Source: a virus | DNA: 35,130 nucleotides | Reading direction: 5' to 3' (one strand) | Virus record (IMG/VR): IMGVR_UViG_3300021599_000436 | Location: 1 to 35,130 of that record | Shown here: in pieces, positions 4,571 to 28,582 of the stretch | Numbering within the stretch: the first letter of the stretch is position 1 | How the letters are laid out: the number at the start of each line of letters is the position of its first letter | Position numbers and translations under genes: made by a program | Notes under the pieces: generated by a model | The model's database searches: none | What the model saw: only the letters and a program-made list of their open reading frames with translations | Told to the model about the DNA's origin: nothing

Positions 4571-4614
4571 TATATGCAATGAGGCCAGTCAATAGACTGG
4601 CCTCATTGTATATA
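4571..4614 (-). terminator. Twenty-base-pair hairpin between SSB and dnaE operon
   Basis: A near-perfect inverted repeat: arms 4571-4590 and 4595-4614 pair over 20 bp with a single G-T wobble (4576/4609) around a four-base loop. The core is GAGGCCAGTC/GACTGGCCTC. There is no T tract on either side, so it is not a classical intrinsic terminator; it could be a factor-dependent terminator, an RNase barrier or a processing site. The current SSB reading frame ends inside its arm (4603-4605), whereas the out-of-frame SSB tail ends just before it (4616-4618). Confidence 0.6.
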
Positions 4615-5100
4615 ATTACCACTCCAAATTGTTGCTTGTTGAAGAGGCTTCTTCTTTATCCTGAGATTCGCCCATATAGAATGCTTCTTGTTCCGCATAT
4701 GAATTGTTTTACCGCTTGTACCTTGTGAAAGAATTGCTACGTATGGCTCTTCCTTACCGTCATCCACCAATACGTTAATATATAAACGTGTTCTAGCTTT
4801 CCAACCAGCCTTTGGGTCTTTACGATGTTGCTCGTTAGCCCAATCACGACCTTCTGTTTCCATTGTATCTAATGCTTTACGACGATAGTCTTTTGGATTA
4901 GTATGCTCTAACGCAATAAATCCACAACCTAGCTTATCGTTGTATGTTGGTGAGTCTGGATCCAACTCTTGCAAAAAGCGAATCTTTACGCTTTCTCCAT
5001 CTTCAATCTTTAGCCAGCGACCTTTATTGTCTTCTCCACCGCTATAAGTAGGCTTGTCCAATGCCTTGTTTAGGTCTTTTAGACCCTTTACTATACTCAT
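4603..5100 (-). CDS. Phage ssDNA-binding protein, C-terminus apparently frameshifted
   Basis: 165 residues, of which about the first 131 look like the ssDNA-binding protein of actinophages (recalled, not searched): a DGESVKIRFLQELD strand near the N-terminus, the central GFIALEHTNPKDYRRKAL segment, and RTRLYINVLVDDGKEEPYVA before LSQGTSGKT. After that point the frame becomes basic and unusual (IHMRNKKHSIWANLRIKKK) and its stop lies inside a hairpin. The -1 frame over the same DNA encodes a typical acidic SSB tail. The gene sits between primase and polymerase, has an AAGGAG ribosome site, and a TGATATAAT promoter lies upstream. The N-terminal call is good; the in-frame C-terminus is probably not the ancestral one. 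Confidence 0.75.
   Translation of the reverse strand: MSIVKGLKDLNKALDKPTYSGGEDNKGRWLKIEDGESVKIRFLQELDPDSPTYNDKLGCGFIALEHTNPKDYRRKALDTMETEGRDWANEQHRKDPKAGWKARTRLYINVLVDDGKEEPYVAILSQGTSGKTIHMRNKKHSIWANLRIKKKPLQQATIWSGNYIQ
4616..4708 (-). pseudogene. Out-of-frame acidic SSB C-terminal tail
   Basis: In the frame -1 to the SSB gene, 30 codons are open between a TAA at 4709-4711 and a TAA at 4616-4618. They read YAEQEAFYMGE, then a Glu/Ser-rich linker, and end LEW. An acidic tail ending in a hydrophobic or aromatic residue is the normal end of SSB proteins, where it recruits partners. The stop falls just before the 4571-4614 hairpin, as expected for the real gene end. From remembered homologues, some 50-60 codons that normally separate LSQGT from this tail are missing. 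The missing length is recall, not measurement. Confidence 0.6.
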
Positions 5101-5148
5101 TTATATCTCCTTGTTTGTAGTTGATGGTATATATCCATCTGTGTTTTC

Positions 5149-5157
5149 ATTATATCA
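5149..5157 (-). promoter_or_regulatory. Extended -10 promoter before the SSB gene
   Basis: The minus strand reads TGATATAAT, a perfect TGnTATAAT, overlapping the primase stop. A weak -35 (AATACA at 5172-5177) is 17 bases upstream. Initiation near 5142 would give a leader of about 42 nt with a small dyad (GATGG/CCATC) and an AAGGAG ribosome site. High SSB demand makes a dedicated promoter plausible. Confidence 0.5.
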
Positions 5158-6153
5158 CGAGTTCCAAGATCTGTATTCCATATCGGAAACAGAATTTTTA
5201 ATGCATATTTTTATTTCTTCATCGGTCATATCGCCAGCATCTTTTGCATCATGAGGATATATTCTACCATATTCATAGGAAGCCCACAATAGGTCTTTAA
5301 ACTTTAATTTTGAAGCAATACTTTTACCTAGCTCCCTGCCTGCAGTATCTGCATCTGTCATTATAGTTATTTTATTAAAATGCCTATTAAGCAAATTGTG
5401 TTGTTCCGTAGAAAGAAATCCTCCTAAAGTAGCAACAACATTTGGAAATCCTGCTTGATGAACACGAATTGCATCAAAGCTAGACTCAACAACTATTACA
5501 TGGTCTCCAATTTTTTTAGCACGGTGTATATTAAATAGCGTTTTACTCTTAGGCAAATTTGTACTATTTTTAAAAGTTTTACCTTCAATTGATCTAGCAA
5601 CAATACCGATAGGCATTCCATCTGGGCTATGTACTGGTACCGTTACCATATCCATATTCTTTGAATATCCTAAATTAAAGTATTTTCCAGACTCCATTTT
5701 AATGCCTCTGGACTCAAAATACTTTTGTGCTCTCCATTCTGTTACAAGGTCGTCGTTTAATTTTGCAAGAGTTTCTTTAGAGAACTCTTCAAAAGTTGGC
5801 TTTTCTTCTAGTGATTCTGCAAGTAGTTCATCAAAATTTTCTAAAGCTTCGGATTCTTTTGAAGATATAAATCTCATAGCTTCAAACTCATTTTTATTTG
5901 TAATTCTTTTAACTAGCTCTTGTAGTGTTCCAGCTTCTCCGCAGGATGGGTTAAAGCATATAAATGCACCCTTTTCACGACTAACGCTAAAACTTGAAGT
6001 ATGTCTATTAGAATGAAATGGGCAGTAGCAAAGAAAGTCGTTAGAAGTTTCTCCAGTTATACTAAGCCCTAAAGATTTTAGGACAGACTTGATGTGGGCT
6101 GGTGAGTAGCTCGTGGTATCAATTTGTTCTGTGTTGTACCCTCTAATTGCCAT
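5155..6153 (-). CDS. DnaG-type DNA primase
   Basis: 332 residues from the ATG at 6153; an upstream ATG at 6204 would add 17 unlikely residues. The N-terminal CHC2-type zinc finger has CPFH at residues 44-47 and ICFNPSCG about 25 residues later. A TOPRIM domain follows at about 205-290, with the acidic Glu in VIVVESSFDAIRVH and the DxD in IMTDADTAGRELG. It makes RNA primers for the phage replisome. There is no C-terminal helicase-binding domain of bacterial DnaG size, as expected for a compact phage primase paired with its own helicase (6361-7608). It overlaps the upstream 100-residue gene by 76 bp. Confidence 0.9.
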   Translation of the reverse strand: MAIRGYNTEQIDTTSYSPAHIKSVLKSLGLSITGETSNDFLCYCPFHSNRHTSSFSVSREKGAFICFNPSCGEAGTLQELVKRITNKNEFEAMRFISSKESEALENFDELLAESLEEKPTFEEFSKETLAKLNDDLVTEWRAQKYFESRGIKMESGKYFNLGYSKNMDMVTVPVHSPDGMPIGIVARSIEGKTFKNSTNLPKSKTLFNIHRAKKIGDHVIVVESSFDAIRVHQAGFPNVVATLGGFLSTEQHNLLNRHFNKITIMTDADTAGRELGKSIASKLKFKDLLWASYEYGRIYPHDAKDAGDMTDEEIKICIKNSVSDMEYRSWNS

Positions 6154-6380
6154 GCCTTCTTCTTTCCTACATAAACGCCATGAATGCTCATTAAGAACTT
6201 CCATGTTTCACCAGTAAATTCTACCGAAAAAGCTGGATCTATGTCAAGTACCCTGATGTATCCTTTGCCACGCATATCTTGAATTAACAAGTTTTCATAC
6301 TGAGGCCTTAAGCTTATAAGTTGAGAATTATCATGAAACTCAACCTGAACCTGAAATCTTTTAATTCTTCGATGAGTCAT
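6078..6380 (-). CDS. Small protein between helicase and primase, 100 aa
   Basis: A basic, beta-rich protein with an N-terminal MTHRRIKRFQVQVEF segment, a central QYENLLIQDMRGKGYIRVLD and an aromatic VEFTGETWKFLMSIHGVYVGKKKAWQ. Function is not recognised. It overlaps the helicase 3' end by 20 bp and the primase 5' end by 76 bp in a different frame, an unusually long overlap. The order helicase, small protein, primase suggests a replisome accessory role, which is only inferred from position. An alternative ATG lies two codons upstream (6386). Confidence 0.7.
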   Translation of the reverse strand: MTHRRIKRFQVQVEFHDNSQLISLRPQYENLLIQDMRGKGYIRVLDIDPAFSVEFTGETWKFLMSIHGVYVGKKKAWQLEGTTQNKLIPRATHQPTSSLS

Positions 6381-7608
6381 TTGCAAATGGGTTTTCGTAT
6401 ATTTCCTTTACAAGACCTCTGTTGATGTCCCAATCTAAATACATTCCAAATTCTTGTCCATGTCTATTCTTTCTAGATACAACCTCAATCATATTTGTAC
6501 CAGTATACTTATGAATAGCAATAGCCATATCTGCATCATATTCGATAGCCTTAGACCAAGCAACTTGGGAAAGCATTGGTGGATTATCTTGATCTGATAC
6601 ATCATCCATTGTCGCTGCAGTAATATCAATAATAGGAATATTGTTTGTCATTGCAAGCATTTTAAACTCACGAGATATATTCATATTACGCTCTGTTGCG
6701 CCCATACTCTTTTTATTATCAGAAAAAAGTTGGTGATAGTCTAAGATAACTAGGTCTGGTTTATGCTGATCAATTTTACCTTGAATGGTTGCTGGAGTTA
6801 CTTCTGACATTCCCTCATTTGAGACAAGAACAAATCCGTTTTTATTATCAAACTTCTTTTGTCCCCATGAACGAAAATCATCAATATTAATTTCTCCCTT
6901 TGATAAATCGCTAGCACGAAATAGTCCTGAACCCATCATTGTGTAAATGCGGTCACGCATATTTTCTGGAGACATTTCAAGAGAAACAATCATTGGCTTA
7001 AATCCTTGCTCCCAAGCTTTACATGCAAGGTAAGATGTAAACCAAGTTTTTCCTCGTCCTGGCCAACCAATAGCAACAATTAAATGTCCTGGAGCCATAC
7101 CAGTTGGATACGCTAAATCAATTGCTTCAAACCCTGTTTTAATTCCTGGGGACCCACCCATTGTTGCAGAGCGAAGTTTAACTGACTCAAAGTGCTTAGT
7201 AGCATTTTCAATATCTGTAACTTCTAGGTCTCTAACATTATTTGTAAATTTACTAAGCATAGAAAGCTGACTTTGCATTTGAGACAAAACTCTTGAAGCA
7301 GCATCTTCTTTTAGCATAGAGCCACCCTTAAGAATTATATTCTTAATTCTGCTAGTAAGATATTCATTCTTTAACTTATCCAAGTAGTATGCGGTTTCGC
7401 CTTTAATGTTTGTGTCTGGATCAAAGTCTTTAAACTTTTCTTGAAGAATACCAACTTCTGGAACTGCTTTAAACTTATAATAATAAGACTTTAAGCCCTC
7501 CCAAATATCTCTATGTGATGTAAAAATTTCATCAACATTATCAGCAAGAAGTACACTGATGTCTTTATTCTTACATACTGCAGAAATTAATGTTGCCTCA
7601 GTATTCAT
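6361..7608 (-). CDS. dnaB: DnaB-family replicative helicase
   Basis: 415 residues. The N-terminal helical domain (about 1-140) resembles the DnaB N-domain. The RecA-like motor has Walker A GWPGRGKT at about residue 180, MIVSLEMSPENMRDRI (motif H1a-like), Walker B LVILDYHQLF, and a C-terminal SRKNRHGQE arginine-finger region, all in DnaB order. It unwinds DNA at the phage fork and would work with the primase and DnaE just downstream. It starts within the stop of the 107-residue gene by a 4-bp ATGA overlap. Confidence 0.92.
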   Translation of the reverse strand: MNTEATLISAVCKNKDISVLLADNVDEIFTSHRDIWEGLKSYYYKFKAVPEVGILQEKFKDFDPDTNIKGETAYYLDKLKNEYLTSRIKNIILKGGSMLKEDAASRVLSQMQSQLSMLSKFTNNVRDLEVTDIENATKHFESVKLRSATMGGSPGIKTGFEAIDLAYPTGMAPGHLIVAIGWPGRGKTWFTSYLACKAWEQGFKPMIVSLEMSPENMRDRIYTMMGSGLFRASDLSKGEINIDDFRSWGQKKFDNKNGFVLVSNEGMSEVTPATIQGKIDQHKPDLVILDYHQLFSDNKKSMGATERNMNISREFKMLAMTNNIPIIDITAATMDDVSDQDNPPMLSQVAWSKAIEYDADMAIAIHKYTGTNMIEVVSRKNRHGQEFGMYLDWDINRGLVKEIYENPFANDSSKN

Positions 7609-7928
7609 TCTATACCGCCTTTTTCTACTAACGTTTTAGTTTTTTCTAGCAAGGCTTTCCTTGCCTCTTTATCTTTTTTAATAGCAATAATAGCAGCTTC
7701 CATTTTATCAAAATTATAGAAAAAGAAATTTAGTGGGTGCCCAGATTTTTGCAGACTAAAGTAATACTCTAATATCTCTATTGCACGTTCTAGACCTACG
7801 CTATCTATAACATCTTGCATAGCCCACTTTTCTCTAAACTTATTAATTTTAGGAGCAGTGTTATATTTTTGCTTGTATAGGTTTTGATATAAAGTCAGCA
7901 TTATGTAAGGCTCTTTATTATTTGCCAT
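7605..7928 (-). CDS. Small helical protein upstream of helicase, 107 aa
   Basis: Predominantly helical: residues about 10-60 contain LYQNLYKQKYNTAPKINKFREKW and a YYFSLQKSGHPLNFFFYNFDKM segment, followed by a basic helix (AIIAIKKDKEARKALLEKTKTLV). No motif is recognised. Its position directly before, and overlapping, a DnaB-type helicase is where phages often carry a helicase loader or replication-initiation factor. That role is a guess from context only: no AAA+ motif is present. Confidence 0.75.
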   Translation of the reverse strand: MANNKEPYIMLTLYQNLYKQKYNTAPKINKFREKWAMQDVIDSVGLERAIEILEYYFSLQKSGHPLNFFFYNFDKMEAAIIAIKKDKEARKALLEKTKTLVEKGGIE

Positions 7929-8121
7929 CTTTTAGCTCTTTCTCTATCTCAGTTGTCTTTTCAATTAGTTTATTTTCAACAAACTTATAGACACGCTCTG
8001 TTGCCGCATCAACATTTTCTCCAGATCTTACATCATCTTCTATGCCGACACCAATCTTAATGCTTTCATAATTGCCTAGATTACGTGTAAATGAAAGGTC
8101 TACCTTAACTCTCGTTGTCAT
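7918..8121 (-). CDS. Small conserved protein, 67 aa
   Basis: A short charged protein: a beta-rich start (RVKVDLSFTRNLGNYESIKIGVGIEDDV) and a C-terminal amphipathic helix (YKFVENKLIEKTTEIEKELK). No known domain. It has a good AAGGAG site and overlaps the zinc-finger gene by ATGA and the next gene by 11 bp. Function unknown; expressed with the helicase operon. Confidence 0.7.
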   Translation of the reverse strand: MTTRVKVDLSFTRNLGNYESIKIGVGIEDDVRSGENVDAATERVYKFVENKLIEKTTEIEKELKDGK

Positions 8122-8228
8122 TTATGCTCCTTTTTAATATGGTTAGATAATGTTAGGTGTGCAAAATCAGATCTAACTTCAAGCTCTTTGTTACAATCTG
8201 GGCAAATTACAATTCTGCTACTTGCCAT
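8118..8228 (-). CDS. Micro-protein with C2H2-type zinc finger, 36 aa
   Basis: A 36-codon gene easily missed by length filters. It begins with ATG at 8228 sharing a base with the previous stop (TAATG), has a GGCGGAG ribosome site, and its TGA overlaps the next ATG (ATGA). It contains CPDC at residues 9-12 and a later LTLSNHIKKEHK with His residues, so a single C2H2-like finger is plausible. Perfect nesting between two real genes is the best evidence that it is coding. Nucleic-acid binding is inferred from the finger. Confidence 0.7.
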   Translation of the reverse strand: MASSRIVICPDCNKELEVRSDFAHLTLSNHIKKEHK

Positions 8229-8707
8229 TACTCCGCCTTCCATACTGGTACGAATCCGTTATCGGTCTTAGTATACAATATAATGTTGTGTTTGAGAAGA
8301 GCTAATAATTCTGAGCGTGATGGCAACTCTAAAGAATGTCCAGAGTCTAAAATAAATTCATGTATGTCTAAAATGTCTTTTTGACTAAACATATACTTAG
8401 ACCATTTACTACCTGGATTTCCAATAGGGTACACCTTCTGAGGAGCAGATATTTTTCCTTCTAATATATAATCTATTATTGTAACTTTGTGCTTGTTAAG
8501 CATAAATCCAACTTGATTAATATCGTAAGCGTTTTCCATATTCTTTTTAACTTGAGAATAAGAATATAAATATCTTTTTTTATCTGGGTAGCACCAGGAA
8601 ACTAGTTCGTCTTTTGCTCTAGATAACTTTAAAACTTTATGTATTTTATCGTTTAAGAAGAAATACCGTAAGCTTTTTGATTTGCTGTTTCTTTTCTCTC
8701 TAGCCAT
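8228..8707 (-). CDS. Basic protein, possible DNA-binding, 159 aa
   Basis: A Lys/Arg-rich 159-residue protein. The N-terminal 35 residues are strongly basic. The central DINQVGFMLNKHKVTIIDYILEGKISAPQKVYP segment resembles a helix-turn-helix with a wing, as in MerR/excisionase-like phage regulators, followed by an aromatic tail (SKWSKYMFSQKDILDIHEFIL). The resemblance is weak, so a regulatory role is only a suggestion. It overlaps the zinc-ribbon gene upstream by 55 bp and touches the micro-protein start. Confidence 0.7.
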   Translation of the reverse strand: MAREKRNSKSKSLRYFFLNDKIHKVLKLSRAKDELVSWCYPDKKRYLYSYSQVKKNMENAYDINQVGFMLNKHKVTIIDYILEGKISAPQKVYPIGNPGSKWSKYMFSQKDILDIHEFILDSGHSLELPSRSELLALLKHNIILYTKTDNGFVPVWKAE

Positions 8708-8838
8708 TTTCCAAACGCACTCGTTTCTTTATTAATCATATTACGTTTTCCGCAAAGTATACAGAACACTTCTACGTGAAGCTTTTGTGAAAATACTCGA
8801 TCAACGAATACTCTTCCACCACATTTTCCGCACCACAT
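8653..8838 (-). CDS. Zinc-ribbon protein, 61 aa
   Basis: Starting at the ATG at 8838, which shares a base with the phosphoesterase stop (TAATG), the protein is 61 residues with CxxC pairs at C3/C6 and C26/C29. This is a classic zinc ribbon followed by a basic helical tail. A start 11 codons upstream (8871) is open but lies inside the phosphoesterase gene and is less likely. Function is unknown; small zinc ribbons often bind nucleic acid or RNA polymerase. Confidence 0.7.
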   Translation of the reverse strand: MWCGKCGGRVFVDRVFSQKLHVEVFCILCGKRNMINKETSAFGKWLERKETANQKAYGISS

Positions 8839-9638
8839 TATAGAGTAAACACCTTTCCGTCCACAACGCAAGAGTAGTCTGGGGACACATGAATCATTTG
8901 AATGTGAGGATAATCATTTACAATATGTGCAATAGCAAAACCTTTTTGCCAGTCGTGGTGCTGGGTATACTTCATCCCTGGCCCCTTTTCATCACACATG
9001 TGACCAATCTCATATCCACGAAGGGTTTCTCCTTCGCCATTATTTCTTAATTCATATGTTACCATGTGTGAGGCAATTCTGTGTGAGTGTCCTCTAATTA
9101 AAGATACCTGAAGATCTTCCATATCTTTTCTTACTGATCCAGTTGCAGATATTGAGATTCCATGGTGGACATGCACGTCACCAAAGCGACGCTTTGGCAA
9201 AGAGTCATAATATATATATTCATAACCTAATGAGTCTAAATTCCAAAGAGTTTCTGGTGTTACTTCTTTTAAATATTCTGGAAGCTTTGCATCCATGTAA
9301 TTAAAAATTCTAATATCGTGATTTCCTAAAGCAGAAAAAAGCTGAGCATCTGGTAACATCTCTCTAGTCTTTGCATAAAAATCTCTTGCTCCCTTTGCTT
9401 CATGACGCATCATTGGAACAATTAAATCCTTACTGTCAGTCTTATGCAATGCAAGAAATTCTGAGGACAAGCCTTCATTATATTTGCTGTAGCATGCTTG
9501 ATCATCTGTGTCTCCCAAATAATCTACTACATCTGGCTTAAACCACTTCATAACCTTAAACCATAGAGCTATCATCTTGTCATCTTGATATGGGAATTGC
9601 TGGTCTGATGACAGCATCCACTTTAAGTCGTTACTCAT
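8838..9638 (-). CDS. Calcineurin-like metallophosphoesterase
   Basis: 266 residues. Motifs in order: SDQQFPYQD at about residue 11 (DxQ where the family usually has DxH), DYLGDTDD (GDxxD) at about residue 40, GNHDIR (GNHD) at about residue 107, then HHGIS and RGHSHR metal-binding histidines. This is the phage subgroup of metallophosphoesterases with DxQ in motif I, which I recall in other actinophages. Substrate unknown; nucleic-acid or nucleotide phosphodiesters are possible. It is first in the early-looking operon and has an AAGGG ribosome site behind the 9657-9722 control region. Confidence 0.85.
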   Translation of the reverse strand: MSNDLKWMLSSDQQFPYQDDKMIALWFKVMKWFKPDVVDYLGDTDDQACYSKYNEGLSSEFLALHKTDSKDLIVPMMRHEAKGARDFYAKTREMLPDAQLFSALGNHDIRIFNYMDAKLPEYLKEVTPETLWNLDSLGYEYIYYDSLPKRRFGDVHVHHGISISATGSVRKDMEDLQVSLIRGHSHRIASHMVTYELRNNGEGETLRGYEIGHMCDEKGPGMKYTQHHDWQKGFAIAHIVNDYPHIQMIHVSPDYSCVVDGKVFTL

Positions 9639-9656
9639 TAAATCCCTTAAATATGT

Positions 9657-9681
9657 AAAAAAGTCACGGGTACGTGACTTT
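9657..9681 (-). terminator. Hairpin plus T-tract in the phosphoesterase leader
   Basis: On the minus strand a 9-bp stem (AAAGTCACG/CGTGACTTT, arms 9660-9668 and 9673-9681) with a GGTA-type loop is followed by a run of six T. This has the form of an intrinsic terminator for the tail operon. It also lies only a few bases downstream of the likely start point of the promoter at 9694-9721, so it would fall in the 5' leader of the phosphoesterase transcript. Confidence 0.65.
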
Positions 9682-9682
9682 G

Positions 9683-9703
9683 ATGTTACAGTAATTGTAA
9701 CAT
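9683..9703. promoter_or_regulatory. Perfect dyad over the -10 region, probable operator
   Basis: ATGTTACA-N5-TGTAACAT, two perfect 8-bp arms. It covers the -10 box (9694-9699) and the expected start point near 9687 of the leftward promoter. A dyad in this place is the typical position of a repressor operator. No repressor gene is identified in the window. Confidence 0.5.
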
Positions 9704-9721
9704 ATGATTAAAAATTGTCAA
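9694..9721 (-). promoter_or_regulatory. Strong sigma-70-like promoter for replication block
   Basis: TTGACA (9716-9721), a 16-base spacer, then TGT-TACAAT with the -10 at 9694-9699. The consensus -35, a five-of-six -10 and the TG extension make it the best promoter in the window. It begins three bases after the stop of the 140-residue tail gene and points at the phosphoesterase and replication genes. Confidence 0.75.
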
Positions 9722-9723
9722 TA

Positions 9724-10146
9724 CTAATAGCAGATAGCTAGCCAAGTAATATATACTGTGTGTGTGGGGGCACTTGACGGCATATATACTACTGCGGTAA
9801 AACCGTCTTTTGTAATAGATTGAGTTTTTGTATTAATTTGTGGATGCCAGCCAGTACCGCTTCCGCTATGCCTAGATGTAATTATAACGGCTCTAGGCAC
9901 ACTATTAACTGTCCCATTAAAAGAAAAATATTGTTCGTTAACCTGCCCAGATTTTAACTCAAACTTTGTACCAGGAGCACTTGCTACAATTTGTGGAATA
10001 TTTGCCTGTTGAACTGTATTATTAGTTACAGTAACATTTGTAGTTGATGCACCAATCTTTGGAATACTAGACGCAAGGTTATTTACCTGTAGCTCTAAGG
10101 CTCCGAGTTTTGCTGCGTCTAAAGGCTCTCCATCATTAAATGCCAT
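9724..10146 (-). CDS. Tail-module protein, 140 aa
   Basis: A 140-residue protein with a helical N-terminus (MAFNDGEPLDAAKLGALELQVNNLASSI) likely to trimerise, then a Thr/Val-rich region and beta strands ending ITWLAICY. It recalls small proteins at the end of actinophage tail modules; a fibre tip or chaperone is possible. It is the last gene of the tail block. Its ATG shares a base with the stop of the broken gene upstream (TAATG). Confidence 0.7.
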   Translation of the reverse strand: MAFNDGEPLDAAKLGALELQVNNLASSIPKIGASTTNVTVTNNTVQQANIPQIVASAPGTKFELKSGQVNEQYFSFNGTVNSVPRAVIITSRHSGSGTGWHPQINTKTQSITKDGFTAVVYMPSSAPTHTVYITWLAICY

Positions 10147-10341
10147 TATAAGTTTTCTCCTAAATCGTGTGCCAAAATTTCTTTTTCTGACACTTCAATT
10201 AATTTTGACCTATCTAACCCATATCTGTCAAAAGCAAGACTGGGCAGCCCTATCAGAAATTAATTTATACCTTTTACCATCTTTAATCCAGTATGTATCT
10301 TTGTCTGTTTTAACAGCAATACCTGAAGGGAAATTAGTTGG
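10146..10341 (-). pseudogene. Remnant of a small tail-module gene, start lost and frameshifted
   Basis: Two recognisable pieces remain. From about 10341 to a TGA at 10228-10230, one frame reads NFPSGIAVKTDKDTYWIKDGK and on to RAAQS. From 10232 the +1 frame reads FDRYGLDRSKLIEVSEKEIL and ends GENL with a TAA that overlaps the next ATG as TAATG, the normal junction of this genome. From memory the intact domain carries about 50 further residues between these pieces. No ATG, GTG or TTG begins the first piece at the expected place: an ATA (10348-10350) stands where ATG would fit. Both an internal deletion and a lost start are therefore likely. Confidence 0.6.
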
Positions 10342-10519
10342 TTGTGATATTATCGAGATGGGCTTCGAACGACTTCGTAGCTTCAACCTTTGCGTCCTTT
10401 TCTTCTACCAGCTTTGTAAGATCTGCTCTTAATATTGCAATTTGAGTCTCATAATTTGAGACTAACTCACCGATTCTTTGCTGCAATGCCGTAATTACTA
10501 GTTCTGCTTTTTCAGCCAT
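10334..10519 (-). CDS. Small coiled-coil tail-module protein, 61 aa
   Basis: A continuous amphipathic helix (ELVITALQQRIGELVSNYE, then ILRADLTKLVEEKDAKVEA), predicted coiled coil. It follows two other small helical genes in the same operon. The last residues overlap the opening of the remnant downstream. Function unknown; short coiled-coil proteins near tail fibres may be fibre-assembly helpers. Confidence 0.65.
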   Translation of the reverse strand: MAEKAELVITALQQRIGELVSNYETQIAILRADLTKLVEEKDAKVEATKSFEAHLDNITTN

Positions 10520-10520
10520 T

Positions 10521-10751: not shown

Positions 10752-10763
10752 TTTATCTCCTTT

Positions 10764-11000: not shown

Positions 11001-11018
11001 TTATCCTCCATTTTTCCA

Positions 11019-11027: not shown

Positions 11028-11029
11028 TA

Positions 11030-14000
11030 TTATAAGAATCCTGTATAGCCACTTGGATAGGTAGTTCCGTTTGTTCCTGTTACCCTACATATTGCTCTAG
11101 CCCATGAAAAATTGGTTGAGGCTGTAATAGTTGTTCCGTTTGTTCCTGCATAAGAAGAACCCCTTGCCATTGTTCTATAGTTTGGAGTTGAATTTCCGCT
11201 CAAGTTATATGTCTGTCCATTTGATACTGGAGCTGATGAACCAGAAGATCCGAATGTAAGTAGTGCGTCTGGGGTTCTTGTTGTTGAAGGAGGCGTTGTT
11301 GAGTTAACATTATGCCACTCTAAAGTATATATAACATAACTGTAACTTCCCATACCACTTGATACGTTCCATCCCCAGTTACGTCTAGTTGAAGATGTAG
11401 CTCCATTTAATCCTCTTGAAAATACAAAGCTTGGTGGTGTTGTTGGTGCTGGTGTAACAAATGCTACTGTCCACTTTGCATAAAGTGTTATATCTGCAGT
11501 TGGTGTATATGAAGATCCAGCATTATAATTTGTTCCAGTGCCAGAAGTATTAGTATTCCATCCGCCAAAAGTATAACCAGTTCTTGTTTGAGCTGCCGCA
11601 AGGGTTACTGATCCTCCTGCGGTAGTCTGAGTAACAGATGCAGGATTAGTTCCTCCAGAGCCATTAACGTTAAATGAAACCGTATAAAAGCTATCGTTAT
11701 TTGTTGAGGCAGAATTATATGTCGACGGTCCAGGACCATCAGCATTTGTGCCTCTAACATGCATATAGTATGTTGTATTTTTTGTTAAATTAGAAACAGT
11801 AACGCTTGTTCCAGTTTGAGCTGTCCATGATGTTGGAGTTGCTGTACTTTGTGTGTGAGCATATTCATATCCAGTAGCAGCATTATTTGATGTTGTTACA
11901 GTTGGAGCAGTCCAGCTCCAAGCTATACTTGTATTGGTTTTAGTGCCAGCTGTTATTGATTGTACAAACCCTGGTGGTTTAGCTGCTGTAGTAGTAAATG
12001 TAGTAGTTAAAGTGCTTGAATAAAGCTTATCATAATTTAATGCTCTATAATAAAGAGTGTACGTTGTACCAGATGTCAACCCAGTAAAATCGTATGGGCT
12101 AGTAAAATCATTATTAAACGAAATGCCATCTAATGAAAATTGAATCCAGTCAATTGTATTTGATCCAGTATTTGATGGAAATGTATAAGGTATAGAAGCT
12201 GTAGTTTTTGTTACAGTTATGGTTCCTAATGTTGGGGTTCCTGGAGCAACTCCTGGTATTTCATAATATGCTAATGAAGTAGATGTTCCACCATTTGAGT
12301 AAGCAGCATTTTCTGAATCAAGGGACGAGTTTCGTGCTCTTGCTGTTGCACGATAAAAATATCGATAATCAACGTTTGTAAATGTTGTAGAGTTTGATGT
12401 AAAATATGGTGAAGATAATAAATTTAATGTTTGCCGTACAGTTCTTGTTTCAAATGTACCAGTCACTACAGACCATGTAGTACCATCATCACTTCCTTCT
12501 AGTTGAACTTCATAGTTTGGACCATTTGTAGAAGTTGTCCATCCTACAGTAACTGTTCTGTATCCGCCAGAAGGAATAGCCTTACTTCCACTATTTACGC
12601 TAAATGGTCCAGGAGCATTTGTTGTTGCTTGACTAAATTGAACTGAATCACCTAATTGAGAATATGCATTAAATGGTGTTAGTGTTACATAATATGTTGT
12701 TCCACTTGTAAGTCCAGATTGAGAATATGAACCAGCAAAAGATGATCCAGAAGCTACAAGTGTTCCAAAGTGTGAACCTGTTCTAATAACATAATTAAAC
12801 CCATTATATCCTCCGCCAGTAGTAAATGAATTAGTAGATATACTTGTGCCAGTTCCAGAAGATGTTAATCCAGATATAAATGGCTTAGTATATTGATTTG
12901 TTGATGTAACAACAGAAAAGTAGCCGTCATCTGCGCTACCAGCAGTTATTGATATTGGAACCATTGAGTCTGTAACAATTTCAGTAAAGCCTACAGATTG
13001 AGTAGGCTGACTTCCACTATAGTATACTCTAAATGTTTGTCCTGCTATATACTGAGCAATTGGGCCTGCAACCGCTGTTCCAAATACAGCGTCGTCTTTA
13101 TACATAGCAACAGTTTTACTTCCAGGCCCTGTACTGCTTCCCCATCTAATTATTTTAAAATCTGCATAATTTTGATTTGTATAAAATCTCATTTGCCATG
13201 TTGCTCTGAAAGCTGTTGTTGATTGATTTAATTTATATCCATCATAATGCAAAACAAACTCTTCTCCGTTAGACCATTTATATCCAACTGGATTCCAAAA
13301 ATCTTGAAGAGATACTGGAATAGAATATCCATTTGGTAGAGTTGTAAAGCTAGCACTAGGATTATCTAGAGACACAAAGCAGTTTGTGCTCATATGTAAA
13401 GTTTTACCCATTGAAAAAGAATAAACAGATGAAACATTTACTACAACAGAATAAGCAGTTGTAGCGGATCCACCAGTATTTGTTCCAGTTACTGCAACTG
13501 CTATAGTGGTATTGTTGTCTGAAGGCTGAATTAAATAGCTTGAAGAAGTACCTTCTTGTAGTGGAGGTGTTTGTGTAATACCTGATACTATTCTAGACCA
13601 AGTATAAACAAATGTATCTGGTGATGTATCCCCAGTATTTGTTGTTGTTGCTTTCCATGTACCGACTTGCTCAACTGCAGTTAATGTTCCACCAACAACT
13701 GGCGATCCAGTTATCGTATAAATTCCATTTGCTACTGGACTATATTTGCTAACATATATTGGATTTGATGCTGCTGAATTAGAGCCCAAAGCATTTGTTG
13801 CAGTTACTTGGCAAATTATGTATTTACCATCGTCTGCAGCTGTTGTTACATATGTGCTAGATGTTGCTCCTGTTATATTAGAATAACCTTGAGGTTCTCC
13901 GCCTCCTGCTGGAGGAGTTCCCCTTCTCCATTGTCTAGTATAAGATGTTGGAGAATTTGTCCATGTACCTAAGCTATTGTTTGTTAAAGTGCTATATAAA

Positions 14001-14188
14001 TATCCTGTTCCAGTTATTGTTGGTGCTACTGTATTGCCTGGTATTTTTGCGGCTGCAAAAACTTTAGTCCATGTACCACCAATTTTTTGAAATATATTTA
14101 ATATTTCAACCCATGTACCGCCCTGTTTTTGAAATACAGAAAGAATTTCTGACCATGTACCACCACGCTTTTGAAATAATCTAGGCAT
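11030..14188 (-). CDS. Large adhesin-like tail fibre with Ig/FN3 domains and InlB-type repeat
   Basis: A 1052-residue Ser/Thr/Gly-rich surface protein. It opens with three tandem 14-residue repeats (FQKxGGTWxxI/V, residues 5-46). Two Ig-like modules follow, then a beta-sandwich near residues 250-420, at least three fibronectin type III-like modules, and a segment matching the Listeria-Bacteroides/InlB B-repeat (from YTVSFNVNGSGG through GYTFGGWNTN to ITLYAKW, coded at about 11467-11690). The last 150 residues are Gly/Ser-rich and may be the receptor-binding tip. Adhesive domains and location at the end of the tail genes indicate a receptor-binding or carbohydrate-adhesion role. Residue limits are approximate. 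Confidence 0.8.
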   Translation of the reverse strand: MPRLFQKRGGTWSEILSVFQKQGGTWVEILNIFQKIGGTWTKVFAAAKIPGNTVAPTITGTGYLYSTLTNNSLGTWTNSPTSYTRQWRRGTPPAGGGEPQGYSNITGATSSTYVTTAADDGKYIICQVTATNALGSNSAASNPIYVSKYSPVANGIYTITGSPVVGGTLTAVEQVGTWKATTTNTGDTSPDTFVYTWSRIVSGITQTPPLQEGTSSSYLIQPSDNNTTIAVAVTGTNTGGSATTAYSVVVNVSSVYSFSMGKTLHMSTNCFVSLDNPSASFTTLPNGYSIPVSLQDFWNPVGYKWSNGEEFVLHYDGYKLNQSTTAFRATWQMRFYTNQNYADFKIIRWGSSTGPGSKTVAMYKDDAVFGTAVAGPIAQYIAGQTFRVYYSGSQPTQSVGFTEIVTDSMVPISITAGSADDGYFSVVTSTNQYTKPFISGLTSSGTGTSISTNSFTTGGGYNGFNYVIRTGSHFGTLVASGSSFAGSYSQSGLTSGTTYYVTLTPFNAYSQLGDSVQFSQATTNAPGPFSVNSGSKAIPSGGYRTVTVGWTTSTNGPNYEVQLEGSDDGTTWSVVTGTFETRTVRQTLNLLSSPYFTSNSTTFTNVDYRYFYRATARARNSSLDSENAAYSNGGTSTSLAYYEIPGVAPGTPTLGTITVTKTTASIPYTFPSNTGSNTIDWIQFSLDGISFNNDFTSPYDFTGLTSGTTYTLYYRALNYDKLYSSTLTTTFTTTAAKPPGFVQSITAGTKTNTSIAWSWTAPTVTTSNNAATGYEYAHTQSTATPTSWTAQTGTSVTVSNLTKNTTYYMHVRGTNADGPGPSTYNSASTNNDSFYTVSFNVNGSGGTNPASVTQTTAGGSVTLAAAQTRTGYTFGGWNTNTSGTGTNYNAGSSYTPTADITLYAKWTVAFVTPAPTTPPSFVFSRGLNGATSSTRRNWGWNVSSGMGSYSYVIYTLEWHNVNSTTPPSTTRTPDALLTFGSSGSSAPVSNGQTYNLSGNSTPNYRTMARGSSYAGTNGTTITASTNFSWARAICRVTGTNGTTYPSGYTGFL
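14051..14176 (-). repeat. Three 42-bp tandem repeats in fibre gene
   Basis: Three in-frame copies of a 42-bp unit encode FQKxGGTWxEILxx-type repeats at the fibre N-terminus (residues 5-18, 19-32, 33-46). The copies differ at several positions, so they are old or diversifying. Similar GGTW repeats begin other phage fibre proteins, from memory. Confidence 0.75.
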
Positions 14189-14193
14189 TTATA

Positions 14194-17444: not shown

Positions 17445-17449
17445 TTTCC

Positions 17450-19282
17450 CTAAACATATATAGACCTTGCAGTTATAGATGTATCTAGGCCCTGATTAAA
17501 TGATTGATTTACGTTTGTAACAATGTACTTTTTAGTTCCATCTAATCCATTGTCTGGATAGTTTACAGAAATGACGTCTCCTACACTGATCAAAGGATTA
17601 CTAAATACATTCATGCTTAAAATAACCTGTTGTTTTGACCACTGGGTTTTAATCCAATCAGATAGTTTTTTAGCATCAGATTCTGTTTGAATCCATACAG
17701 ATTCAAATATTGCTGGCTCTGGAGTACTGAATTCATTTATTGTACTGTCTGTATACTCGTGTTGTCCAGTAGGAACCACATAGTTTCCTATCACGTTAAA
17801 TGAATTAAATTGACCATCGCTTAAAGGTACAAAGGTGCCTGAATTATTTAATAGATATATTTCAGCCCCAAAACTTGTAAGTCTTTGTCCTAGTATTTGA
17901 ATAAATTTATTAATACCAACAGTTGAATATAAAGGTTGTGCTGGCCTATCTTGATATTTTACAGCAACCTTTCTAAGCTCTCTAGCAACCGTTCCAAATT
18001 CCTCTAGTTTACCTCCAGGAATTTCTGCTTTATTAAAATTGCTTAGTACCTTTTCTCCATATAAAAAGTCTAGGGTGGTTGTTGCAAACTGGCCGTTGTA
18101 TACGTTTTGAAGAACTCCAGTAGTATATTGACTTTCACTAATTGGAGCAGCATAAACATAGTCAAAGTTTGATGATCCAACTGAGGAAACAAGAGCAACA
18201 TTTGATGTTACTGGTAAAATTAATTTTGTTGGATCAGTAGTATTTGGCGTATTAGTGTCAACTGCAGATATTTTAAAGTTATTAATATAAATATCTATAA
18301 CATTAACTGTAGCACTTGCCTTTACCTTAATATCAATTTTATAATTTTTTGCCCCCACAATACCATTCATTGTAGAAGAGCTGCTATTTTGACTGTCACT
18401 TAATATTGTTTTTTTACCGCCAACAACCTTTAAAATCTTTACTTCTTTTTCTCCATGAATAGAAAGATTGGATGTAGTTTCCATCATAACATAGTATCCA
18501 TCCATACCATTACTACTTGTAAAAAATCCAAATCCTCCTGAAGCATCCGTATTTGTTACGCTGCTCTGAAAGAACAGAGCTGCTCCAAAAGTATAGTAAG
18601 AAGATGATGTAGATATTCCAAGATTTTTAACTGCAATGGAGTATGCATCTTTATCTTTTGAGTTATTTGTAACCTTAAAGAGCGATCTAGTTACTTGTCT
18701 ATTTCCAGCAACTGCGTTGTAGCTTCCAGTTGGCACTGGAGTTAGAGTTTCATTTGAGTCTCCAGCATCATTAGCATTATTCTCTACGTTACCAGAAGCA
18801 GCTTGTATTCCAGACAAAGTTGTTGTATCAACATACGATGGCTCTGGAGGTACATTTCTTGGAACTGCAACTCCATTAGCAGTAGAACTAACAGAACCTA
18901 CATTTGCTGCTTTAGGCATTGTAAATGTATGATATTTATATGCTCCGTATATTGATGGATCTGCTGCGTGACATGCTGCTCTAAGCCTATATTCTTTTCC
19001 TGGAGTTAATCCTGTTAATGTAAAAATTCCATCTACATCATTAAACGTTCTTACTGGGCTGCTAAACGATGTAGACTCTGAGACATCTCCCCTATAACTT
19101 CCTGGAGTAACAGACGGAGTCATTATAATAACCTGAACATCTGTAGAATTTATAATTGAAACATGTATCCAAGGAATAGCTAGTTGAGCTGGTGTTGGTG
19201 AAGTTGCTGGTCTATCAACATCATAAAAGTTGCCCCATGATGCTGCCATGATTCCTGCTAGTGTTGTTGTATTAACTGTCAT
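17450..19282 (-). CDS. Minor tail protein with FN3, lectin-like and hub-like domains
   Basis: 610 residues from the ATG at 19282, which shares a base with the upstream stop (TAATG); a GTG three codons upstream is less likely. An FN3-like module occupies about residues 30-125 (FTLTGLTPGKEYRLRAACHA). Residues about 190-380 form a laminin-G/carbohydrate-binding-like beta sandwich (FGFFTSSNGMDGYYVMMETT). The C-terminal 200 residues resemble tail-hub proteins (AIFESVWIQTESDAKKLSDW, SVGDVISVNYPDNG). It may present a glycan-binding face at the tail tip. Fold assignments are by eye. Confidence 0.7.
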   Translation of the reverse strand: MTVNTTTLAGIMAASWGNFYDVDRPATSPTPAQLAIPWIHVSIINSTDVQVIIMTPSVTPGSYRGDVSESTSFSSPVRTFNDVDGIFTLTGLTPGKEYRLRAACHAADPSIYGAYKYHTFTMPKAANVGSVSSTANGVAVPRNVPPEPSYVDTTTLSGIQAASGNVENNANDAGDSNETLTPVPTGSYNAVAGNRQVTRSLFKVTNNSKDKDAYSIAVKNLGISTSSSYYTFGAALFFQSSVTNTDASGGFGFFTSSNGMDGYYVMMETTSNLSIHGEKEVKILKVVGGKKTILSDSQNSSSSTMNGIVGAKNYKIDIKVKASATVNVIDIYINNFKISAVDTNTPNTTDPTKLILPVTSNVALVSSVGSSNFDYVYAAPISESQYTTGVLQNVYNGQFATTTLDFLYGEKVLSNFNKAEIPGGKLEEFGTVARELRKVAVKYQDRPAQPLYSTVGINKFIQILGQRLTSFGAEIYLLNNSGTFVPLSDGQFNSFNVIGNYVVPTGQHEYTDSTINEFSTPEPAIFESVWIQTESDAKKLSDWIKTQWSKQQVILSMNVFSNPLISVGDVISVNYPDNGLDGTKKYIVTNVNQSFNQGLDTSITARSIYV

Positions 19283-24600: not shown

Positions 24601-27600
24601 CAGCAATTGCCTGCATATAATTACCTGCAGCATTATATCCCCAGTTTCTAAAGCCAGACTTGTCTTTTGGAGAAACGTGTTCTGATTCAAAAAGATTTCT
24701 ACTTGTTAAATCTGATAGTCTAATTTTAGAAGGGTCTACGTCTGGGAATAATCTAGGGAAAACCCTTGCCGCCATTTTTGGATCTGATGCTTCTAGTAAT
24801 CTTAAAAGTTTTACAGAATCTTGATTTGCTTGTTTTGCAGACAAAGCCTGCAGACCGCCAGCATTTTTTGTAAGCAATGATCTTCCATATTTTTGTTTAA
24901 TATATCTGTGTCTAGCTTGAGTTACTTTTCTTGCTTGCTCTTTAAATAATCTTCTATCAATCTCACCTTGCCCGCCACGTAAATCTTTTCTAAAAGAATT
25001 TCTTAAAGCAGTATCTACGTCCGCTGTTGCCATAGCAATTGCATCTGACGGATCTACGCCAAGAGGCACTAGTGCGCTAGCATTATTCATTATAGCTCTA
25101 AATCTAGCCTCATCTCCCCAGTTTGGAGATGTTGCATATCTTTCTTCAATAGACAATATTTGTCTGTATAAATCTAGATCTGTGGCTGTTCCTCCGCCAT
25201 TAAAGTTTGGACCTGTTCCTCCAGCGCCACCATTAATAGCCATAAGCAATGGTAGGTTTTGTTTTGTTGCCTGAGCATTTACAACGAATTCTCCTGGTGT
25301 AAGCATTGCTGGAACAACATCTGCATTTATGTTTGGCCCAGGAACTATGCTTCCATCATTTGCTGTATATACATATCCACCATCATTGAAATTTTTTGGC
25401 TTAGTAGTCTCTATATTATAACCAGCACCTGATGTTCTTACTCCTAAATTTCTAGCAATACTATCAATAAAGTTTTTTGTTTTGCTTTTCTTAAAAAGCT
25501 CACGCATATTAGACTTACCAGTAGCCGTTACAACTGGCTGATTTAATGTAGGAATTACAGTTGGATTTAAAGTCCTACCCATTCCCTTTGCTTGTGCCAT
25601 AGTTGTTTCTGCAATAAGAGCTTCTGTCCTAGAGTTTAGTGCCATAATTTCTGCTCTAGCCTGTTGAACATTCATTGCTCCTGCTTCAAGTTGTGCTATG
25701 ATTGCTCTTGACTCAATTGCTGCATTTTTAGTAATAGCTTGAACTGCTGGCAAAACATCGTCAAACACTTGCATAAATTCTGCGCTTGCTAATCCAGTAG
25801 TAGCAATAGATTTTTTAAGTGCAGCAATTTCTGCTTTTGACTGCATGCCTAATGTCGCCATCATTGCATGCCATTTTCCAGCTTCAGAGGCGACTATGCC
25901 AGTAGATGCTCCATTAACTCTTGTAAGTCCTGGTATATTTGGTAATTCTGACTCTGCATAAATTTGTGGGTTCTGACCAATTCTTTGATTTACTGGAATA
26001 GATCCAGGAACCATGCCGAACATTGTTTGATTAAGTCTTTCTGTTGTTGACATAACTCCACGAGGATTCATGTGAGAACTTGCCCTTGAATAAGCTGGTC
26101 CTACAAGTGGGTGATTTTTATCAACTACTCTTGCTCCTGCGCCTGCTCGTTGAACTAAATTTCCAGCCATAGTGTTAACTGCTGGGGCTACAGATATTGA
26201 ACCAGTTGCTGCTTTTGCTTCTAGAACACTAAACTCATCAATAAGATTTCTTAATGCTAGCTGTAAAACTCCTGCTGCTTTAGCATCGCTATAAAGAGTT
26301 TGTTCAATTAAACTTCCAGCTTTTTCTGCTGCTAAAATTTCTGGAGTTAAATATTTCCATCCTTCTCCGCCTTTAAACAGAGCCTTCATATGGAATACAC
26401 CCTTTACTATATATCCAAAGAAGTTTGCAAGTACACCAGTTAACATAATAAGTGGTCCAGCTACAGCTGTTAGCCCTCCAAATAATGTTAGTACTTGTTT
26501 TAATGGCTTAGGTAAATTATCTACAAATTCTAATATTTTTGTAACAACATTAATTAATGTTGTGTTAATTGCTAAAAATTGATTTCCTACTGTGGCCAAC
26601 TCAGCCTTTAATCCTTCTACAGCTCTATTATATCTTCCAGAAGCAGATTCTGTAACAGCCTTTAATTCTCGATCAGCCAATGCTCCCAAATCGCCTGTGC
26701 TTGCTTTCATTAAGTCTAAAACTTGTAGTGTCTGGCTTCCTTGTTTTCCTAGATTTTCAAATAGGGCATTCATTCTAGAAAACTGGAATTTACCAAATAA
26801 ATTTTCAATTGCTTGTTGCTTTTTTAATGGATCAAGCTGATCTAATGCTGCTTGCAAAGCAAGTAAGGTATCTGTGGTGCTTCCAGCATTGTCATTTACA
26901 ATTCCTAAAAGATCTATTCCAAATCCCTTAAATTGTTCTACAGCTTTATCTGTAGGGTTAATTAAAGATGCAAGACCTGATTTTAGTGCGTTAGCACCTT
27001 CAGATGCATTAATTCCACCTTCACGCATAGCTGTTAAATAAAGAGCTAAATCTTTTACGCTTCCGCCTAAACCTTGAATTACTGGTCCAGCCTTTGGAAT
27101 TGCTTCCACCAAATCATTTAGACTTGTTGATGTTTGGTTTTCAACTGCGTTTAAAAAGTTAATTGATTCTGATAGTTGATCTGTATTTTGTTTAAATGCA
27201 GATTGAATTGCTAATGTTGCTTTCATTGCTTCTGCTCTATCAACTTCTCCAAGCACTGCAAGTCTAGTTGTTTCTTCGATTGAAGCAATAAGCTCCTGTC
27301 CAGTTTTTCCTGTTGCTGCAATATCTGCGCCTAGCGCTAAAGTTTCTCTATATGACGCACCTAAATTTTGAGATAAAGCTTTAGCTGTTGCCTCAACCTC
27401 TTGTCTTACCTTACCTAATTCTTCTGTTGTAGTTCCAGCAGTATCTCCATAAACCTTTACAAGTCTTGTTAACTCTGCATCTGCCGTTCTAAAAGCATCT
27501 GCTGCAGCTTTTCCAAATGCTGCTAGAGGAAGTGTAAGACCTACAGTTAACTGACGACCTGCCCACTGTGTATTTTTACCCCAGTTAATAAGTTGACCAG

Positions 27601-28105
27601 CGCCCTGCTGAACAACTTTATTCATAATCTGAAGTTCTTGTCTTGCAATTGCAGTTTTATTTTTTACTTCGTCAAGGCCTCTAGGCACCTGTACGTTAAA
27701 TTGCATTAGCCCCTGAGCATTTCTTCCCAGAGGCTGTATAATTGCGTTTTGCAATGCTACTTGTTGTTTTGCAAGATCTCTAATAAGTCCGCCAGATGTT
27801 TTGGCGTGATTTTGCATAGTCTTATAATATTGATTTAACTTAAGCTGTCCTGAATCTAAATTTTTTCCAAATTTTTCTACATCAGAATTTAAGCTTACAA
27901 AGTGTGTTGAAAATTGGCCTGTGCTTCTTAAAGTGTCCGAAAAGGACCTATTCATTACTGCAATTTGATTTGCAAACATCTTGTTTGATGATGCAATTTT
28001 TTCTTGCAGTTTAGATAGGGATGCGGTTACTTTATGAACATCTGCAATGAGTCCCGAAAAATCCGCATCTGCGGTAATTCGGGTTCTTACTTGTTCATCA
28101 GCCAT
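21635..28105 (-). CDS. Tail tape measure protein, 2156 aa
   Basis: Sets tail length and is ejected with DNA. Helical N-terminus (about 1-180), then the TP901-type tape measure domain (about 190-520; ADAELTRLVKVYGDTAG, MREGGINASEGANALKSGL). Hydrophobic segments lie near 545-575 (GPLIMLTGVLANFFGYIV) and 1365-1385 (GPVGLAIIAVGGLVAAYKLI). The VPAMLTPGEFVVNAQA motif near 930 is a common feature of actinophage tape measures. Residues about 965-1240 form an Arg-rich inserted region between GG-rich linkers. A long charged coiled coil runs at about 1690-1840. At roughly 0.15 nm per residue the tail would be about 320 nm. No lytic domain is recognised. Confidence 0.93.
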   Translation of the reverse strand: MADEQVRTRITADADFSGLIADVHKVTASLSKLQEKIASSNKMFANQIAVMNRSFSDTLRSTGQFSTHFVSLNSDVEKFGKNLDSGQLKLNQYYKTMQNHAKTSGGLIRDLAKQQVALQNAIIQPLGRNAQGLMQFNVQVPRGLDEVKNKTAIARQELQIMNKVVQQGAGQLINWGKNTQWAGRQLTVGLTLPLAAFGKAAADAFRTADAELTRLVKVYGDTAGTTTEELGKVRQEVEATAKALSQNLGASYRETLALGADIAATGKTGQELIASIEETTRLAVLGEVDRAEAMKATLAIQSAFKQNTDQLSESINFLNAVENQTSTSLNDLVEAIPKAGPVIQGLGGSVKDLALYLTAMREGGINASEGANALKSGLASLINPTDKAVEQFKGFGIDLLGIVNDNAGSTTDTLLALQAALDQLDPLKKQQAIENLFGKFQFSRMNALFENLGKQGSQTLQVLDLMKASTGDLGALADRELKAVTESASGRYNRAVEGLKAELATVGNQFLAINTTLINVVTKILEFVDNLPKPLKQVLTLFGGLTAVAGPLIMLTGVLANFFGYIVKGVFHMKALFKGGEGWKYLTPEILAAEKAGSLIEQTLYSDAKAAGVLQLALRNLIDEFSVLEAKAATGSISVAPAVNTMAGNLVQRAGAGARVVDKNHPLVGPAYSRASSHMNPRGVMSTTERLNQTMFGMVPGSIPVNQRIGQNPQIYAESELPNIPGLTRVNGASTGIVASEAGKWHAMMATLGMQSKAEIAALKKSIATTGLASAEFMQVFDDVLPAVQAITKNAAIESRAIIAQLEAGAMNVQQARAEIMALNSRTEALIAETTMAQAKGMGRTLNPTVIPTLNQPVVTATGKSNMRELFKKSKTKNFIDSIARNLGVRTSGAGYNIETTKPKNFNDGGYVYTANDGSIVPGPNINADVVPAMLTPGEFVVNAQATKQNLPLLMAINGGAGGTGPNFNGGGTATDLDLYRQILSIEERYATSPNWGDEARFRAIMNNASALVPLGVDPSDAIAMATADVDTALRNSFRKDLRGGQGEIDRRLFKEQARKVTQARHRYIKQKYGRSLLTKNAGGLQALSAKQANQDSVKLLRLLEASDPKMAARVFPRLFPDVDPSKIRLSDLTSRNLFESEHVSPKDKSGFRNWGYNAAGNYMQAIAGESNINRLHNTLGNRGLVPNAVPLTTSSAESVQKQMRAKRGNISYPKAVSMSPSRSTRIAKAIIGASSRRRLFSMASAGGMNKGGMVYANKGGIIPSLRSGFSEGRAGKSGGEPSEMGGMGQFGLGMGLQMAGMYTGGSLGTGMMASGTALQMLPMLQMLKPAMGQLKNITGAVSLFGRIAGSAFRIAGAAVKFFTGPVGLAIIAVGGLVAAYKLIKKEIAEQRRETALLNGITKEGAKEAGISYETMTEKLKRVNAELKLQREKGLLAYEATTNSGVSGLTLTIAELKKLKETAKETMPTLYATFNNIDSSKVNDLAANLKAQFVAGGMSAQDATNKIYALIEASNKAGQGFNAIAQKGFQQIVDKGSAASFTIETLKGNILDFEKGIRDVDSAAFSGNVDSVINSLEGAVNALVGTRDASGQKITEAQALVMQYEKLNTLGVKNLQIGETALNNLKKENPLLASILKSTDTVGGMWAKVRLQTAGVNVNLKNMSSELAISLSLYQDALEQAGDQIESGEVVSDALGKAAAGSKKLGEEIKKNSDILKKAEDAQIGMDRAAIKRINDKIAAIRKEADAKKKAMSDALESENTELELQKLQLEAQAQLARGDRDGYAQTQLAIKQLVNETQAKKAMQKVDELAQKEEDKWRKKLDDDQEKKDRQGDKVDAANKGNNRAVETKAKVDEYLAKLTALAQRMSNAQRLKDPTRRKESVDAVTGEKNLLIENLGKESKEVREFFSNYVDPSTGKKLKGVAKWGGGADSEFNKLVQEMEKQAGTNYDKMVKDLGGGSTLNDVVRAMGGKAPVTRNITADNLSSILKGSEKLSDLFKKNGDLTDIARTRLINKFKLKQDDVFRYGEDEYRVTIGEDAILHDAKAVKRAGGGRFTPGQTYTINDGMKTEGIRFDMPGTIYPNINTSPRYNIPSNSINGMSGVSNNASSSNCVYNVNIALNGTNVSVDEVVMRFKQELSRMGAKEGRIKTIGAGVV

Positions 28106-28108
28106 TTA

Positions 28109-28474
28109 TTACTCCTTAGAATATCCTAAACCTGCTCCAATTCCAAATCCTGCTTCTGCAGCAAATTGTCCTTGTAGTGAAACTATGTCAGATCCGTCTG
28201 CTTCAATTCCTAATGCTTTTCTTCTGACATCTTCAAAGGTAGGACCTTCGTTTTTTTCTTCTTCGATGTTAAGATCGATACCTTGCATTCCTGCAAGAAA
28301 CTTTCTTTCCTCCGACTCTTTCTTTTTAATAGATTTCAATGTTTGCAATAACTCTGGCATTGAAAGACTTTCTTCTAGTTCTTCGTAATTTTTCCAATGA
28401 CCTAAAAGAAAAACTTCTCCTAATAAAGCGGCTAAGTCTAGTTCTGACCAGCCAGAACCGCTGCCGCTAGTAGG
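28109..28474 (-). CDS. Tail assembly chaperone, -1 frameshift extension
   Basis: The downstream frame of the two-product tail assembly chaperone (lambda G/GT type), 121 codons after the slip. It has no good start of its own: the first ATG (28360) would drop the conserved first 38 codons, which read SGWSELDLAALLGEVFLLGH and then WKNYEELEESLSMPELL. Entry is expected by -1 frameshifting at CCCAAAC (28474-28480). The C-terminal part has DLNIEEEKNEGPTFEDVRRK and ends AGFGIGAGLGYSKE, typical of actinophage GT proteins from memory. It precedes the tape measure, which this chaperone family binds during tail assembly. Confidence 0.8.
   Translation of the reverse strand, partial: PTSGSGSGWSELDLAALLGEVFLLGHWKNYEELEESLSMPELLQTLKSIKKKESEERKFLAGMQGIDLNIEEEKNEGPTFEDVRRKALGIEADGSDIVSLQGQFAAEAGFGIGAGLGYSKE
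28441..28458 (-). promoter_or_regulatory. Stem-loop downstream of the slippery site
   Basis: GTTCTG and CAGAAC form a perfect 6-bp stem around a six-base loop, 15 bases after the CCCAAAC heptamer and just before the zero-frame stop. Three more pairs are possible with a bulge. The spacing is longer than the usual 5-9 bases, so a stimulatory role is uncertain. Confidence 0.35.
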
Positions 28475-28480
28475 TTTGGG
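28474..28480 (-). promoter_or_regulatory. Programmed -1 frameshift heptamer CCCAAAC
   Basis: The zero frame reads GAC-CCA-AAC, giving C CCA AAC, an exact X XXY YYZ slippery site. Shifting to CCC AAA joins ...KLDDPN to PTSGSGSGWSELD. It lies in the region where both chaperone frames are open (between the TAA at 28490-28492 and the TAG at 28438-28440). Confidence 0.75.
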
Positions 28481-28582
28481 TCGTCCAACTTAATACCACC
28501 ACATACTTCAAGTATGCGGTGATTTCTTCTACATTATATACTGTTGTTGCCAATTTAATCCTCCTAGGATCTAGTCTCATTT

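Follow-up and report, generated by a model that had tools for sequence, protein, structure and literature searches.

Three clean losses in conserved genes of a tailed-phage contig are almost certainly false assembly joints

Have three genes of a tailed phage, each of which begins as expected and resumes in another frame after an internal loss, been changed in the phage itself or only in its assembled sequence? The question is raised by the IMG/VR virus record IMGVR_UViG_3300021599_000436, a part of a tailed phage analyzed here over its whole 35,130 bases (the window), in which an SSB gene, a small tail-region gene and a tail assembly chaperone gene are affected. The original prediction, made without database searches, described these genes as having internal losses after which the 3' part is read out of frame, and this was confirmed: 187, 158 and 217 bp are missing, none of them a multiple of 3. 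The three lesions are almost certainly false joints of technical origin in the assembled sequence rather than alterations of the phage, and no biological feature. This reading is favored because an intact, near-identical twin exists, because each joint is found in a single contig, because the joints show no frame preference and because they are concentrated in one metagenome series.

The twin, IMGVR_UViG_3300008267_000009 (G001, 100,563 bp), was recovered by scanning with the SSB and chaperone pieces, and it carries the missing DNA at all three places. Compared end to end with G001 31047-66738, the window shows 8 substitutions and three clean losses (217, 158 and 187 bp) and is otherwise equal. 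The prediction that all the large genes are intact was borne out by this comparison, which gave only the 8 substitutions elsewhere. The missing codons of each gene were measured against G001. A further record, 3300008448_000207 (G003), comes from another metagenome and can be aligned with G001 across 40,100 bp without any gap and with only 6 mismatches. It covers the chaperone, where it also carries the missing DNA, and ends short of the SSB and tail genes.

The SSB gene lies on the minus strand (4616-5100), with its true, shifted stop at 4616 and an apparent stop at 4603. The joint is at 4701-4702, shares 0 bp between its sides and lacks the 187 bp found at G001:61851-62037, which hold codons 133-195 of 223; the remainder is out of frame. 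Membership as a phage SSB (phrog_9721) is indicated by a match that spans most of the profile in the intact 223-aa form of G001 (residues 1-216 on profile positions 1-223 of 246, E 6.1e-47), while the window form matches positions 1-174 (E 7.6e-30). The lost DNA is coding and conserved: all 80 loci recovered by the SSB scan carry a full-length SSB. Among 175 matching entries, drawn from 361 loci plus the window with several entries per record possible, 167 are full and 6 are cut by a contig end, and the window has the only internal break. The remaining entry (L187) is cut by the end of the extracted stretch, and its record has a full SSB. A strong inverted repeat at 4571-4614 (G001:62125-62168), terminator-like and past the SSB stop, lies outside the lesion; it has a 20-bp stem with one mismatch and a 4-base loop.

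The small tail-region gene (10146-10386, minus strand) has a stop that overlaps the next start, in TAATG at 10146. Its joint at 10234-10235 shares 1 bp and lacks 158 bp, found in G001 from 56160, which correspond to codons 50-103 of 132, and here too the rest is out of frame. The intact protein in G001 has 132 aa and matches phrog_9616, a family of unknown function, with E 3.8e-34; the window form gives 6.2e-5. The gene is complete in 48 of 49 loci, and the remaining one is cut by a contig end. A second joint suspected in this gene at 10340-10350 was not found, the window and G001 being identical there; the tail gene has one joint.

The third gene, ORF1 of the tail assembly chaperone (28438-28553, minus strand), has its joint within 28517-28520, where 3 bp are shared and 217 bp are missing. 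The missing stretch is G001:37660-37876, which holds codons 21-93 of 119 when counted from the upstream ATG, and the loss is out of frame. ORF1 is intact in G001 (119 aa from the upstream ATG) and in G003. The intact form matches phrog_10504, also of unknown function (E 3e-33), and the gene is named chaperone because of its position between the major tail protein and the tape measure, as in phage Faust. It is full in 128 of 136 matching entries; the other 8 comprise one contig-end case, the window twice (its locus L001 being the window) and five overlapping loci of the near-twin G002 described below. The cut chaperone of another contig, G004, is too short to match and stands outside this count. 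The 3' pieces retained in the three genes also end at sensible features, as had been noticed from the letters for the first two: the SSB stop at 4616 by the hairpin at 4571-4614, the tail stop in TAATG, and the chaperone ORF1 stop at 28438.

The chaperone carries a second frame change of another kind. Programmed -1 frameshifting is a known system in tail assembly chaperones of phages, and CCCAAAC is a canonical slippery heptamer of the X XXY YYZ type. This motif, a putative site for the -1 frameshift from ORF1 to ORF2, is at 28474-28480 on the minus strand, and 74 of 77 relatives have it upstream of the conserved chaperone end, at a distance of no more than 45 nt, the 77 being the loci where that end was found. 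ORF2, the frameshifted extension (28109-28480, minus strand), is intact by comparison with G001, and 78 of 80 loci have it in the -1 frame; of the other two, one has it in a different frame and one is without an ORF1 match. Given these counts, the out-of-frame second half looks partly natural and like ordinary programmed -1 frameshifting: the heptamer precedes the ORF1 stop in nearly all of these relatives, as in the known system. Such frameshifting accounts for the ORF2 frame in intact relatives but not for the loss in ORF1 of the window, and the 217 bp missing upstream of the heptamer are a false joint. Of the earlier view that the whole out-of-frame end of the chaperone is a lesion, the 217-bp loss therefore stands and the frame of ORF2 does not.

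The joints are private to the window. Exact-flank patterns beside them were scanned against viral_contigs only, with the window's own record possibly left out. The SSB flank was found in 14 records, all 14 intact. The chaperone flank was found in 3 records, two of them intact (G001 and G003) and the third with a different cut (G002), and the tail-gene flank in G001 alone, intact. No second record with any of the three joints was found in these scans. G002 (3300008262_000552) is a near-twin that has two substitutions in common with the window. Two losses are seen in it: 220 bp that overlap the chaperone interval but have edges unlike those of the window, and 66 bp at window 32213-32279 (G002 19149), where the gene following the capsid gene ends and the window is whole. 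The window (at 35130) and G002 have the same terminal base, G001 31047, despite their different cuts.

Comparable joints occur in other phages. In all, 15 joints were resolved in 8 contigs: 3 in the window, 2 in G002 and the remainder from near-identical pairs of other phages. These are losses of 45, 139 and 329 bp in 3300008110_002846 (G004), 61 and 158 bp in 3300021599_000985 (G007), 278 bp with 5 extra bases in 3300008110_000772 (G006), 93 bp in 3300008266_000343 (G008), 222 and 125 bp in 3300008114_001280 (G010), and 177 bp in 3300008107_002501 (G017). For the frame count the G006 joint was taken as losing 273 bp net, and in the count of shared bases it was given 0. The loss in G008 removes 31 codons in frame from the middle of DnaE (codons 557-588; L028 ~5366, G008 ~2643), a protein that is whole, with 1088 aa, in its partner 3300042691_004758. 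Three differences were kept outside the 15: G008 and G009 differ by a 20-bp gap, G016 and G017 differ in a messy way, and G011 differs from G001 by 348 bp. The last appears to be natural gene presence or absence, as expected of natural change and unlike the joints: G011 (3300044733_004742), from outside the series, has 348 bp fewer at one place, equal to one whole 104-aa gene (G001 82853-83200, outside the window) with both neighbors intact, and this gene is present also in 3300031784_003400.

The losses at the 15 joints span 45-329 bp and are clean and repeat-free. The frame is broken at 9 joints and kept at 6, against 5 expected (P 0.59), so there is no preference. Added over all joints, 14 bases are shared between the two sides; cutting G001 at random with losses of equal size gives 11.6 (P 0.30). 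These counts therefore give no sign that the frame is under selection or that repeats drove the deletions. A recurrent collapse at short repeats had been proposed for the three genes; a collapse in assembly or consensus is the explanation favored here, and the part played by short repeats is not supported by the 0, 1 and 3 bp shared in the window or by the comparison with random cuts.

The joints are tied to a dataset rather than to a lineage. In contigs matched over at least 2 kb to a partner at 97% identity or more, joints were found in 4 of 14 from the series (8 joints in 124 kb) and in none of 139 others (1.21 Mb; Fisher P 4.6e-5), the series being the metagenomes 33000081xx-84xx plus 3300021599, a grouping made afterwards. 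The window is absent from this table, and the joints of G006, G010 and G017, which come from whole-record comparison, are also outside the 4 of 14. The series presumably comes from a lake setting, which was not used as support.

The losses may have arisen as follows. The assembly would have been unable to bridge a short stretch at each of the three places, and the flanking pieces would then have been set end to end, by a scaffold gap closed to nothing or by an equivalent local assembly error. This end-to-end joining would have cost 158-217 bp per place. The faults described in PMC7111523 (Genome Res. 2020) include local assembly errors and gaps at scaffold joins, by which databases come to hold genes that are incomplete or wrong, and its authors suspect that the errors are particularly prominent in IDBA-UD output. 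The window resembles these cases in that false sequence stands where the assembly broke and a public database thereby receives protein-coding genes that are incomplete or incorrect. The errors described there are sequence without read support and N gaps, whereas in the window there is no N and the two sides are joined directly. No N bases were present among the 201 loci.

The places where contigs end are informative for this mechanism. An independent record of the window's strain, 3300031784_003400 from yet another metagenome, breaks off at G001 62003, within the part of SSB that is missing from the window. In a test that assumes uniform ends, 35 contig ends lying up to 10 kb upstream of DnaE were counted. 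The SSB gene holds 11 of them, where 2.35 would be expected (P 1.2e-5), and the exact SSB interval holds 4, where 0.65 would be expected (P 0.004). The joints themselves recur at certain sites: three in the chaperone (window, G002 and G004), three in the gene following the capsid gene, at its end or boundary (G002, G004 and G007), and two in the next head-tail region (G004 and G007). We read these sites as places where assembly tends to break. No clear pile-up of contig ends was found near the chaperone or near the gene after the capsid gene, where ends were viewed by eye only.

Two possible causes of the breaks were considered and rejected. Hairpins do not fit, since the G001 stretch matching the window has only two strong ones (score at least 10), one of them 88 bp from the SSB interval and none at the tail gene. 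Nor do the missing stretches stand out as the parts that other strains share most or from which they have diverged most, since profiles of k-mer sharing and identity gave no common pattern.

Several points weigh against the reading of the joints as false. The boundaries of the series were drawn after the joints were known, and 3300021599 joined it because its contigs are near-identical to contigs of 8107 and 8110. Ten of the 14 series contigs were without a joint in the partner comparison; on whole-record comparison, three of these ten (8107, 8110 and 8114) have one or two, and that comparison covered only a minority of the 139 contigs outside the series. There are 3 shared bp at the chaperone joint and 4 at one joint elsewhere. 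The contigs behind the 35 ends are not fully independent. The recurrence of joints in the same small genes across contigs and phage species is unlike purely random error. Finally, the lack of read support at the joints is inferred, not observed; that no reads span them, and which step was at fault, we infer from the comparisons above.

Among the other explanations, the one that survives best is that the joined molecules were made during library amplification and not in a computing step. Such deletion chimeras would likewise be technical and tied to a data series. They are expected as a minority of reads and usually at short homologies, and the joints have no homology beyond chance, so that this origin seems improbable.

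It is less probable still, and very unlikely, that the joints are those of real molecules, that is, of a defective phage subpopulation with internal deletions, supported by helper phages in the same cells, of which the assembler took the deleted form. The recurrence of joints in the same small genes of separate contigs, as in the chaperone of the window, G002 and G004, would agree with this, and the absence of a frame preference is also expected of non-functional genomes. Defective genomes would, however, need three linked deletions on one otherwise near-unchanged lineage, and the near-twin G002 carries different deletions. In the scans of viral_contigs none of the window's joints was recovered independently in a second record, shared bases are not in excess, and the clustering of joints in one metagenome series would then be accidental. 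A wider form of this idea is that the joints are real and recurrent. Natural populations of related freshwater phages of the Streptomyces type would then carry many short deletions hitting the same small genes repeatedly (the tail chaperone, the gene following the capsid gene and SSB), as a pool of defective genomes maintained by complementation. We give it an equally slim chance.

True decay, in which SSB, the tail-region protein and the chaperone would have been lost in the lineage and supplied by the host or by another phage, is extremely unlikely. The three genes are really broken in the sequence of the window, as decay would require. Against this, only 8 substitutions in 35 kb accompany three large lesions in conserved genes, SSB is complete in 80 of 80 loci and the tail gene in 48 of 49, with the remaining one at a contig end, and the scans of viral_contigs found no second record with the same allele. 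The same data that favor an artefact thus make unlikely both deleted genomes and decay with complementation, which had been offered as explanations. Restoration of the proteins by a decoding or RNA-joining event acting on the sequence as it stands was rightly ranked last in the original prediction, since the DNA lacks the codons, and is already refuted for the missing codons: the -1 frameshift site lies downstream of the chaperone joint, but about 52 to 72 codons are absent per place, are present in G001 and have no source in the window.

The phage itself can be placed by protein comparison. Its capsid protein is 58.5% identical, over the full length, to that of Streptomyces phage Faust (NC_070783, Stanwilliamsviridae), and the order of capsid gene, head-tail genes, Ig-domain major tail protein, two-piece chaperone and tape measure is the same. 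The window belongs to an uncultivated relative, and the three lesions are no trait of that family. No match to cultured phages was found by megablast with window 1-25000, and searching genome contigs with the capsid protein turned up no relative that would settle the host.

The 8 substitutions between the window and G001 are at 743, 11425, four positions in 11453-11468, 14243 and 16261. Five of them are packed into 44 bp (window 11425-11468), within the large gene at 11030-14188, and it is in this same gene that G002 diverges from G001 (G001 52508-53332). Outside the window, the stretch at G001 ~21.3-21.8 kb (G003 18276-18786) contains repeats that are about 76-79% alike.

These results call for caution with IMG/VR contigs of this metagenome series, which may hold clean losses that mimic gene decay or unusual decoding. 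Claims of gene loss, pseudogenes or recoding made from such contigs require a second assembly or reads.

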